Below are positions 41,136-44,501 of a DNA stretch of 64,000 nt, in pieces. Position 1 is the stretch's first letter. Every line of letters begins with the position of its first letter. A program made the position numbers and the translations under genes. The stretch is from Phaeocystidibacter marisrubri (GTDB lineage: Bacteria > Bacteroidota > Bacteroidia > Flavobacteriales > Schleiferiaceae), in contig NZ_WBVQ01000002.1 in NCBI RefSeq assembly GCF_008933165.1, forward strand, positions 705,569-769,568, read 5' to 3'. The notes under the pieces were generated by a model. The model was given only the letters and a program-made list of their open reading frames with translations. It was not told the DNA's origin and ran no database searches.

Positions 41136-41513
41136 ATGGAAATTCGATATGAGTCAGGTCGACCCCGCAGTATTTTAATTTCATTGGTGGTAAATGTACT
41201 TAGCATTTTTGCTGCATCTTACCTCCTAGACGGTGTTATTGTAGATTCTGTAACTACCGCCATTTGGGTAGCCATTACCCTTTCCATCCTCAATGTAACC
41301 ATTAAGCCGTTGTTGATTCTATTGACACTACCGCTTACTGTGTTCTCCTTTGGACTGTTCCTTCTGGTCATCAATGCCATTGTCATCTACATTGCAGCCG
41401 ATTGGATCAGTGGATTCACCGTCCATGGATTTTGGTGGGCCGTTCTATTCAGCCTTCTAATCTCACTCATTAACAGCGTCCTGTACCGATTGGGCGATCG
41501 TTCAGCAGAATAA
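41136..41513 (+). CDS. Phage holin family IV-like (PF04020-type) membrane protein
   Basis: 125 residues, four transmembrane segments, with the family pattern LSILNVTIKPLLILLTLPLT and FWWAVLFSLLISLINSVL. Despite the name, this family is widespread in bacterial chromosomes and lacks phage context here; function unknown. Divergent from the M1 peptidase gene with overlapping promoter regions. Confidence 0.85.
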   Translation: MEIRYESGRPRSILISLVVNVLSIFAASYLLDGVIVDSVTTAIWVAITLSILNVTIKPLLILLTLPLTVFSFGLFLLVINAIVIYIAADWISGFTVHGFWWAVLFSLLISLINSVLYRLGDRSAE

Positions 41514-41546: not shown

Positions 41547-42434
41547 ATGAAAAGTCTACTTACCCTATTCCTCTTTGGCTTCTCACTTTTTACATTGGGG
41601 CAAACCACGTGTATTCCGTTAGATAATGCCACTTGGATCAACGCAAACGAGTGCATAGACAACGAATGGAGTCCACCTCAGTTTCGCTTTTCCTACTATT
41701 CAACCGGAACAGCAGACACGGCCATTGGAGGGGTCACCTATAGAATGTTATTCGGCGACATTCACCACAGTCAATTTGTGGGTGGCATACGAGCGGACTC
41801 GCTTCGGGCGTGGATATATCCGGCCAATGACACATCAGAATACATTTTCCTAGATTTCTCTTTAGAAATAGGAGACACCATTCGAAATGTCTATTCCTCC
41901 AAATTTGGAAGCTCCAATTATTTGAGAGATTACGTCGTATTAGACACTACCGATAATGGCACCTTCTGGAATCTCTCTTCAGATTCACTCATCCTCGGAC
42001 TCAACGAATTTCAAGACTCTTCCGTTTACTCCCGACAATATTGGGTCTATGGCATTGGCAACCTGCGAGGATTCCTAGAGCATAACTACCAAGGAATCGA
42101 CTGCTTAGACTATTTGGATTGCGCGAGTGTGAATGATACCTCTTACTTTCCAACAGTGGGCGAATATCAATGTGGATATAGCAACTTCTCTACTTCCGAA
42201 AACCAGAAGAACACGAGGACAATCTACCCTAATCCGACCTCAGGAATGGTTTATTTCTCCAGCCCTCTTCAGGATGGATTTGTAGAAATAATCAATGTTA
42301 ATGGACAGGTAGTAGAAAGAAAAAAGGCAGATGCCGAACTCTCTGTTCAGCATCTGCCTTCTGGATTATATACGGTGCTCCTGTTTGAAGGAGATCAACT
42401 TGTTCACCGCGAAAAACTAGCGATTAATCACTAA
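41547..42434 (+). CDS. T9SS-exported protein of unknown function
   Basis: 295 residues: signal peptide (about 1-18, FTLG before QTT), a beta-rich mature region with Tyr/Ser/Asp-rich strands and scattered cysteines, and a type A sorting domain from about residue 222 (TRTIYPNPTSGMVYF, INVNGQVVE, LPSGLYTVLL) ending LAINH. Function of the mature part not recognised. Its last 18 bp overlap, codon on codon, the last 18 bp of the convergent T9SS gene. Confidence 0.82.
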   Translation: MKSLLTLFLFGFSLFTLGQTTCIPLDNATWINANECIDNEWSPPQFRFSYYSTGTADTAIGGVTYRMLFGDIHHSQFVGGIRADSLRAWIYPANDTSEYIFLDFSLEIGDTIRNVYSSKFGSSNYLRDYVVLDTTDNGTFWNLSSDSLILGLNEFQDSSVYSRQYWVYGIGNLRGFLEHNYQGIDCLDYLDCASVNDTSYFPTVGEYQCGYSNFSTSENQKNTRTIYPNPTSGMVYFSSPLQDGFVEIINVNGQVVERKKADAELSVQHLPSGLYTVLLFEGDQLVHREKLAINH

Positions 42435-44408
42435 TTTTTTGGTGATGGTTCCGTGGTCGGTTGTGTAGCGTAACACGTACATTCCCACTGCTTCCGAACT
42501 GAGATCGATCATTGTGCGAACGTCTATTTCTCCATGTGATTGAGCAATGACTCTGCCCTGAAGATCGGTAACAACCCATGCTTGGGGAGATGCATCTCCT
42601 GAGTACAGCATTTCGAAAATTCCGTTACTCGGATTCGGAGCTACATCGAGAAATTCATCGAGGTTGTGTTCACTAACGGAAAGCTCACCATCAATGGTGA
42701 ACATGTGGCGAATCTCTGTCCCGAAATCTGCCTGAAGTTTTAGGAACAATGGAGTTGTACCTCCGTTGTTGCGGAGTTGCACATATCCAGCTCCATCATT
42801 GTTAGCCCACCAAGAAAGTCCGTCTTTGCCACGGTCCATAACACGCAATTCGTAACAACCACTCGGCAAGTCGAGCGTATCATAAAAGAACTGGTTACTG
42901 CTCAAGCCATCGCGTGAAGCTACGATCTGACCTGCGTCGTTGAAAAGCTCCCAATGTGTTTCATTGCCAGCCGCATTGGTGCGCGTCACAATCACCATGT
43001 TGCTAGGGTGAACTGTAGGGATATCAAACTGACTGAACTTGTCATTGTTGTAGGCCACCTGATCTCCCGCTACATCGATGTGTGCTTCAAACTCACCGCT
43101 CTGAGCATTAGCCCAAGGCCAAGGTCCAACCATTGGCATGGTAACCACTTCAGATTCGCCATAAGCCAATGAACCCGACCAAGTATAATGCTGAATCCAT
43201 GAACCTGGAATGCCGTAACGAATCACAGCGCTTGTGAGTGTATCGCCTCCACGGTTTGTAATGCGAACCATGGCTTGGCGACAGGCGGGATTGTATCTGC
43301 GGAATTCCACATTGTTGTTTGGAGCGATGATATCTGTTATCTCCCCATCTACATCAATCTGGAAATCGTCGTATTGAACCAAAACACCCTCCAGTTCGTA
43401 TCCTGCAGGAGTTTCACCTGAAGGCACAGTATACGAGTATGCTTCCACGTCTACGTTCATTTCTACTTGAGAAAGCCCCGAAAGGCTTCCAATCTCATCT
43501 TGGAAAATGATGGCATCATCGCCCGGACACCAGTTGGCACGATCGTACAACCATGTTCCTCCTTGTGGGTAGATAGGGTTCATACCACAATCGTCTCTCC
43601 ACATATCGTGACGAGCCACTTGAGCACCGTCTTTGTAGAGGGTGAAGTGTTTATTACAGAATTCCGCACAGTTCAATGCATTCACAAAACCGTGACCAGT
43701 TGGCGTAAAGCGGAAAACACCATCAACGGCATTCGGATTTACTGGAACTGTTACTGGAGGCAATACATTGCTTTCAAATGTTGCTGTTTGGATATACTGC
43801 CCATAGCGAGAATAGACCTGATTCATTTGAACGACAGGTCGGGCTGGAGTTCCTTCAATAAAAATGAAATCAACGGTAGCACTAAAGCCCGAACTCCATC
43901 CTTTGTAGGCAGCTGCAATCGCTACGGTATCGTGAAGCAGGTGTGCAAAATCGGTGACATCAAACACAAATGGATGCTCCCACGAATTGTTGTAACCCGC
44001 CGATCCCTGACGCATGTAACCACCGTACGGAGTAATTACTCTACCCAATTCCCACGTCCTATTCACCTCGAAAACATTCCAAGTGGTATCAATAACTAGT
44101 GGGTTGGTGGAGATGGTATCTAACGATGCAACTGATGAGTCCATCATTCCAGTTGGTTCATACAGGTTGATTTGGGTGGTATAATCCCAATCGCTACAAC
44201 CACCAGAAGCACAGCCCATGGTATAAACCATAAGTATCTTGTTATAGGAAGTTGCTTGGCTAGGAAGGGTGGCCGTATCTGAATACGAACCGTACCAGGT
44301 GAGATCCATATGATCCATTGCGCGAACCACCGTGGAATCACCCGGCCCCGCAAAAGACAGATAGGAGCTAAGTAGCAGTGCTCCTGACATGAGTGTAGAT
44401 ATCTTCAT
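42417..44408 (-). CDS. T9SS-exported protein with PNGase F-like domains
   Basis: 663 residues. Signal peptide about 1-20 (SFA before GPG). Residues about 50-310 follow peptide-N-glycosidase F: CSDWD (71-75; D75 aligns with catalytic Asp60 of the Elizabethkingia enzyme), GRVITPYGG, CAEFCNKHF (E249 aligns with Glu206) and DRANWCPG (289-296). The third acidic active-site residue, Glu118, has no obvious equivalent near AAAYKGWSSG. A beta-rich region, including a PKD/CARDB-like stretch, follows, then a sorting domain (LDVAPNPSNGIFEM... ending LVINR). N-glycan removal or binding is inferred. ATG 44408 chosen for the clean signal peptide. Confidence 0.8.
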   Translation of the reverse strand: MKISTLMSGALLLSSYLSFAGPGDSTVVRAMDHMDLTWYGSYSDTATLPSQATSYNKILMVYTMGCASGGCSDWDYTTQINLYEPTGMMDSSVASLDTISTNPLVIDTTWNVFEVNRTWELGRVITPYGGYMRQGSAGYNNSWEHPFVFDVTDFAHLLHDTVAIAAAYKGWSSGFSATVDFIFIEGTPARPVVQMNQVYSRYGQYIQTATFESNVLPPVTVPVNPNAVDGVFRFTPTGHGFVNALNCAEFCNKHFTLYKDGAQVARHDMWRDDCGMNPIYPQGGTWLYDRANWCPGDDAIIFQDEIGSLSGLSQVEMNVDVEAYSYTVPSGETPAGYELEGVLVQYDDFQIDVDGEITDIIAPNNNVEFRRYNPACRQAMVRITNRGGDTLTSAVIRYGIPGSWIQHYTWSGSLAYGESEVVTMPMVGPWPWANAQSGEFEAHIDVAGDQVAYNNDKFSQFDIPTVHPSNMVIVTRTNAAGNETHWELFNDAGQIVASRDGLSSNQFFYDTLDLPSGCYELRVMDRGKDGLSWWANNDGAGYVQLRNNGGTTPLFLKLQADFGTEIRHMFTIDGELSVSEHNLDEFLDVAPNPSNGIFEMLYSGDASPQAWVVTDLQGRVIAQSHGEIDVRTMIDLSSEAVGMYVLRYTTDHGTITKKLVINR

Positions 44409-44429
44409 GGGTTTAATTTTTGTGCCCAT

Positions 44430-44437
44430 GCAAGGTA
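44430..44437 (-). promoter_or_regulatory. -7 promoter element of the PNGase F-like gene
   Basis: Minus strand TACCTTGC, 21 nt before the ATG at 44408. Confidence 0.45.
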
Positions 44438-44501
44438 GCACAGAAAATCCAATACCCTTGTAAGACCTTAACCCAAGAAAAGCAGTTATCCAAGTAACGT
44501 A

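Follow-up and report, generated by a model that had tools for sequence, protein, structure and literature searches.

A codon-on-codon overlap of 18 bp between two convergent genes for predicted T9SS cargo proteins in Phaeocystidibacter marisrubri

Introduction

Two convergent genes of Phaeocystidibacter marisrubri, both predicted to encode proteins secreted by the T9SS, run into each other at their 3' ends, and the motif L-x-I-N is read there from the same DNA on either strand. The window analysed here is a stretch of 64,000 nucleotides of contig NZ_WBVQ01000002.1 (positions 705,569 to 769,568 of the forward strand; assembly GCF_008933165.1), and coordinates are those of the window. The initial annotation of this stretch proposed that the common DNA supplies the secretion tag to both proteins, and that this arrangement could have arisen by inverted duplication of the tag or be favoured by convergent fusion. 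The question is therefore whether the locus represents a secretion tag shared by two genes or a convergent overlap of a familiar kind, and how the junction came about.

The two genes and their products

The plus-strand gene (41547..42434) encodes a protein of 295 aa, and the minus-strand gene (42417..44441) encodes a protein of 674 aa, for which the true start may be located some codons downstream of the GTG listed. Both proteins are, by profile, predicted T9SS type A cargo. The sorting-domain profile TIGR04183 (cut-off 23) matches residues 226-293 of the plus protein (42222..42425, plus strand) with 36.8 bits and residues 600-673 of the minus protein (42423..42644, minus strand) with 55.6 bits. 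Consistently, PF18962 scores 38.5 and 49.4 bits (cut-off 27). No further match above cut-off was found for the plus protein in NCBIfam or Pfam; a homologue with 32% identity occupies the corresponding place in the metagenome-assembled genome (MAG) HF-Dia32. The minus protein is PNGase F-like: PF09113 matches with 54.8 bits against a gathering score of 25, PF09112 stays below its cut-off (14.4 against 22.4), and solved PNGase F chains are matched with E about 9e-12. The Asp of a WD segment and the Glu of a CAE segment, which we take to be the catalytic residues, are kept in the alignment to PNGase F. Beside the plus gene lies an open reading frame for a membrane-protein-like product of 125 aa (41136..41513, plus strand), presumably holin-like; in ten relatives that have no plus cargo gene at that place, a homologue of this frame lies opposite the PNGase-like gene.

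Sequence of the shared 3' end

Exactly 18 bp (42417..42434, CTAGCGATTAATCACTAA) are common to the two open reading frames, codon on codon, and direct reading of the sequence and of the translations confirms the annotated overlap to the base. The plus protein ends in REKLAINH*, of which LAINH* is encoded by the overlap, and the minus protein ends in ITKKLVINR*, of which LVINR* is encoded there. As the initial annotation stated, each stop codon is the antisense of a leucine codon of the other gene: the plus stop TAA pairs with the minus Leu codon TTA, and the minus stop TAG pairs with the plus Leu codon CTA. Compared with its reverse complement, the 18-mer is identical at 14 of 18 positions, and the 28-mer around it at 24 of 28. 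The genes lie on opposite strands and their 3' overlap is a multiple of three, which places them in phase 123:321 of convergent overlaps. Judged from sequence, each gene is supported by domain matches and by a homologue in a congener.

It had also been suggested that the motif tolerates self-complementarity because ATT and AAT exchange Ile and Asn. This is supported by enumeration: when one strand reads YTA-x-ATT-AAT-x-TAR, the opposite strand encodes L-x-I-N-x-stop in 13456 of 13456 fillings without internal stops. Because the motif on one strand always forces the same motif on the other, the two L-x-I-N ends count as a single observation and not as two independent ones. The case carries a caution: a pair of matching antisense motifs may amount to a single coincidence rather than two.

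Extent of the shared tag

The type A sorting domain is described in PMC12618676 as a seven-stranded Ig-like beta-sandwich. Predicted models of the two sorting domains have seven strands each (mean pLDDT 85.2 and 84.9), and the plus domain alone matches the solved type A domain 8glk_D with E 0.0018. The Lys-Leu-x-Ile-Asn end had been taken as the last strand of the domain. In both models L-x-I indeed belongs to that strand, but the strand stops at Ile; it comprises TITKKLVI (residues 81-88 of 90) in the minus protein and QLVHREKLAI (residues 70-79 of 81) in the plus protein. On these models, the overlap would contribute L-x-I of the last strand and the two residues that follow it, and thus a small part of the tag. 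Of about 70 tag residues, the shared DNA encodes the final 5, so that the proposal of a common tag source holds for the end of the last strand but not for the remainder of the domain. The two sorting domains are 24% identical to each other, as against 21-26% between the plus domain and three further sorting domains. Inverted duplication of the tag is therefore rejected as its origin, the two domains being no more alike than the plus domain and those three.

Frequency of such overlaps in the genome

Convergent gene pairs were surveyed in 1.2 Mb of the same genome (C2:1-1160000 and 1220001-1260000) with a simple purpose-built gene caller, which drops long overlaps (more than 200 bp, or more than 60 bp and more than 15% of a gene). 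Forty of 154 convergent pairs overlap in this survey, 18 of the 40 by 4 bp, and five overlaps are in register (6, 9, 12, 18 and 21 bp). Table 3 of PMC2174442 gives the codon-on-codon phase for 33% of convergent overlaps of at least 5 nt in 58 prokaryotes. In-register convergent overlap is thus ordinary both in this genome and in prokaryotes.

The 111 sorting-domain (CTD) matches in the genome yield three convergent adjacent CTD pairs on inspection of the list by eye, one of which overlaps; the matches of the other two pairs lie 136 and 141 bp apart. Among 41 CTD ends examined in the 1.2-Mb stretch, of the 111 matches, an in-register L-x-I-N-x-stop on the antisense strand occurs only at the two ends of the present pair; for this genome, the idea that CTD genes generally hide such a tag in antisense is rejected. 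Another antisense stop lies within 10 codons at seven further ends of the 41, and none of the other 39 ends has ATT-AAT at that place.

Searches for further dual sites

Sites of the same kind were sought at three taxonomic levels. At the level of the order, a palindromic pattern with four possible cores gave at least 71 sites in 395 genomes (five of the seven in genome G329 are among those listed). The RTTAAY core accounts for 18 of the 71 listed sites by hand count, about the quarter expected by chance from four equal cores. Of these 71, 48 were inspected, including all 17 listed RTTAAY sites besides the window. At the level of the class, the RTTAAY pattern gave seven sites in 395 genomes, all of them inspected; two of these and the window are also in the order set. 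The two sets share 16 genomes, which leaves 774 distinct ones. Among the inspected strict-pattern sites in these 774 genomes, no dual site with long frames on both strands was found other than the window, for patterns that were fixed in length, register and codons and that CTD overlaps of other kinds would escape. A widespread shared tag is rejected on this result.

A broader pattern, applied to 80 genomes of the family, gave 28 sites by hand count, and the 18 inspected (the window included) contain no second dual case; at one site of this pattern, L114, the open frames on the two strands are 59 and 56 codons long. A one-sided pattern matched 191 of the same 395 class genomes. Thirty loci among the matches listed, out of many more sites, were inspected, in 31 rows, two of which are one palindromic place seen from either side. 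Ten rows end a frame of at least 80 codons, nine of these being CTD-like by a crude G-x-Y test, and no locus inspected has frames of at least 80 codons on both strands. A reversed-pattern control gave about 85 sites against 73 for the pattern in the order, 27 against 7 in the class and 111 against 28 in the family (hand sums), a control that is unmatched in that the reversed pattern holds no forced stops. Reports of tail-to-tail overlapping CTD genes were not found among the literature matches listed, as judged by titles and the starts of abstracts.

Several palindromes of related form were seen in these searches. At seven loci (L041, L042, L043, L044, L116, L117 and L118), the end of a single CTD gene coincides with a 24-bp palindrome of this kind that extends beyond the stop; the palindrome is nearly identical in L041-L044, which come from four genomes of one family and genus. 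A palindrome of the control form recurs at seven sites in G329, the five listed ones being identical, and the sole site there checked for frames (L067) has no long one. Another control-form palindrome, with one base varying, is common to six genomes of one genus (G295, G243, G354, G319, G351 and G366).

The locus in related genomes

Two other genomes of the genus were compared, those of P. luteus (L032, the same place as L003) and MAG HF-Dia32 (L031, the same place as L002), in which the PNGase-like orthologues have 74-76% identity. In HF-Dia32, the homologue of the plus gene faces the PNGase-like orthologue across a spacer of 60 bp, which contains a terminator-like hairpin with T-runs (z -4.6). 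Because a second homologue of the plus gene elsewhere in HF-Dia32 (G002 C15) is equally similar (35% against 32% identity), the matching of this pair to that of the window, and with it the orthology of the syntenic copy, rests on gene order and not on sequence. In P. luteus, the plus gene is absent from the locus, and the best match to its protein elsewhere is 27% identical; a gene for a membrane-protein-like product of 125 aa faces the PNGase-like gene across 78 bp that include a hairpin (z -7.1), the hairpins of both spacers being stable. The overlap is kept in neither congener, the two ends being separated by the spacer in HF-Dia32 and the plus gene missing in P. luteus. Together with the ordinary frequency of in-register overlaps and the lack of a second CTD/CTD case among the sites inspected above, this leaves the idea that convergent fusion is favoured without support.

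The protein ends differ in detail among the three genomes. The minus protein is one residue longer than its counterparts in both congeners, ending in KLVINR* as against KVVVN* and KLVLN*; since other type A ends often carry one more residue after Asn (KLIINK*, KLIINR*), little weight can be placed on the added Arg as a sign that the junction arose in this lineage. The plus homologue in HF-Dia32 ends in EKVIIQR*, which matches EKLAINH* in length and in the position of Ile. ATTAAT is found at the gene ends of neither congener at this place, and the palindrome is likewise absent from both.

In all, 36 distinct PNGase-like loci, those of the genus included, were inspected, three of which run off the contig before the stop, leaving 33 readable. 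The membrane-protein-like gene lies downstream of the PNGase-like gene in 12 of the 33. Because only the window and HF-Dia32 of these 12 carry the cargo gene in between, the plus gene looks, from these sequences, like an insertion in part of the genus or a gene lost in P. luteus. At two other loci, L023 and L024, a different CTD match lies farther downstream, and the membrane-protein-like gene has no match there. The PNGase-like gene overlaps the next reverse open frame by at least 4 bp in 11 of the 33 loci, a count that takes reverse frames of at least 100 codons, not all of which are proven genes, and omits L025, where the nearest frame looks spurious. Only two of the 33 overlap in register, the window (18 bp) and L012 (9 bp).

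A terminator-like hairpin inside the facing gene

A predicted intrinsic-terminator-like hairpin of 18 pairs, running into TTTTTTCTTTC, is positioned to serve the PNGase-like gene (42322..42362, minus strand). Read from 42362 to 42322, it lies within the sorting-domain codons of the plus gene (KKADAELSVQHLPS), one arm falling in the codons of the QHLPS segment, and its foot is 96 nt past the stop of the minus gene. The surrounding 66 nt fold at -29.7 kcal/mol (z -7.05) and the 41 nt alone at -29.2 kcal/mol (z -8.2). One DNA segment may thus combine the coding of a conserved sorting domain with a terminator-like hairpin for the facing gene.

The hairpin is the strongest of 155 gene ends with a candidate, among 290 ends of 145 convergent pairs with gaps below 500 bp, on a purpose-made terminator score. 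With a threshold of -14 kcal/mol for a strong hairpin, also purpose-made, such hairpins occur at 9 of 156 ends of pairs that overlap or lie less than 20 bp apart, all nine of them inside the facing gene. Random coding windows contain one in 2 of 600 cases (1 of 300 sense, 1 of 300 antisense). Pairs at least 20 bp apart have a strong hairpin at 73 of 134 ends, one of which is inside the facing gene. The same scan gave no terminator candidate downstream of the plus gene. Embedded terminators of this kind are known from E. coli, where PMC2174442 counts an intrinsic terminator in the facing gene for 23 of 116 genes that overlap convergently.

Origin of the overlap

The overlap is probably an ordinary convergent 3' overlap that arose in this lineage by loss of spacer DNA. 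The pair at the same place in HF-Dia32 has its 60-bp spacer, and the pair in the window has none and shares 18 bp. A deletion, or the loss of a stop followed by a deletion, would have joined both 3' ends in codon register, so that each stop came to lie within a Leu codon of the other gene. Such a junction would be tolerated because the last strand of type A domains ends in L-x-I-N and codon-on-codon antisense swaps Ile ATT with Asn AAT and Leu YTA with a stop, leaving both ends acceptable. With the spacer gone, the minus gene would terminate at the predicted hairpin inside the coding DNA of the plus gene. Against spacer loss it can be said that an ancestor with the exact junction is not known, that neither end in HF-Dia32 has ATTAAT and that neither the putative deletion nor its end points are seen directly. 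The overlap may also have been lost in HF-Dia32 instead of gained in the lineage of the window.

Two finer accounts are versions of how the junction was made, and their probabilities overlap with that of spacer loss. The plus gene might have lost its stop and run in register into the antisense of the KLVIN end of the PNGase-like gene, gaining (A)INH*. The final Asn is native to the minus gene, as KLVLN* and KVVVN* in the congeners indicate, and the in-register antisense of its motif necessarily yields L-x-I-N-x-stop. However, the agreement of EKVIIQR* with EKLAINH* makes the plus end look native as well, and such an antisense-made end is a minor possibility. Alternatively, ATTAAT may have formed a direct repeat at both Ile-Asn ends in the same codon phase, a deletion between the copies removing the spacer and leaving both ends intact. 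The overlap is centred on ATTAAT, the position and length of both ends appear native, and KLxINx* ends of CTD genes with these codons exist in other Bacteroidota. However, because ATT-AAT is absent from the 39 other CTD ends at that place, two independent copies here would be a coincidence. Neither congener shows ATTAAT there, and the inspected sites include no second collapsed pair; this account seems unlikely.

That the palindrome is kept for a function of its own, for example as an A-tract/T-tract hairpin terminating both genes, is improbable. The 24/28 symmetry is high, and the minus-strand 32-mer folds at -10 kcal/mol (z -4.5). However, the plus-strand 32-mer reaches a mere -3.5 kcal/mol (z -1.4), and a two-way terminator is rejected for this weakness; moreover, G-C pairs are few, the minus gene has the far stronger hairpin with its foot 96 nt past the stop, and neither congener has the palindrome here. 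Least credible of all is that selection or inverted duplication built a shared tag coupling the two genes: both are cargo genes by profile and carry the identical motif, but one strand's motif forces the other's, the domains are no closer to each other than to others, 5 of about 70 residues are common, both congeners are without the overlap, and the window is the sole dual site among those inspected in the 774 genomes.

Implications and comparison with known systems

The overlap is real and exact, but it adds one more case to a known class and does not represent a novel type of secretion tag. The data give no support to the claim that duplication or selection created a tag common to both genes. 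The locus provides an example of protein ends that survive reading on both strands. Because codons of the ATT/AAT type, one hydrophobic and one polar, swap in codon-on-codon antisense, a strand that alternates ahead of a stop can remain an alternating one. A more far-reaching and doubtful proposal is that the last strand of type A domains, K-L-x-I-N-x-stop written with YTA, ATT and AAT, is antisense-reciprocal and so predisposes convergent T9SS cargo genes to collapse, by deletion between ATTAAT copies, onto one common in-register end, with each gene supplying the stop of the other and, in the present case, a terminator left inside the tag DNA of the facing gene. If this were true, a stretch of about 110 bp would encode the ends of both proteins and contain a terminator as well. 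A general principle for T9SS cargo is so far not supported.

Compared with the T9SS type A sorting domain (TIGR04183, PF18962), both proteins score above the curated cut-offs and show seven strands in their predicted models, and nothing unusual was seen in the two domains themselves. As in the convergent pairs in phase 123:321 covered by PMC2174442, the codons of the two genes coincide along a brief common 3' segment; the present genes differ in that both ends come from one domain family, so that the antisense ends look alike. The embedded terminators of E. coli treated in the same paper have the same placement, with the hairpin of one gene falling within the coding sequence of the gene opposite; the present hairpin differs in that it occupies a conserved sorting-domain segment and ranks first among the 155 scored gene ends with a candidate.
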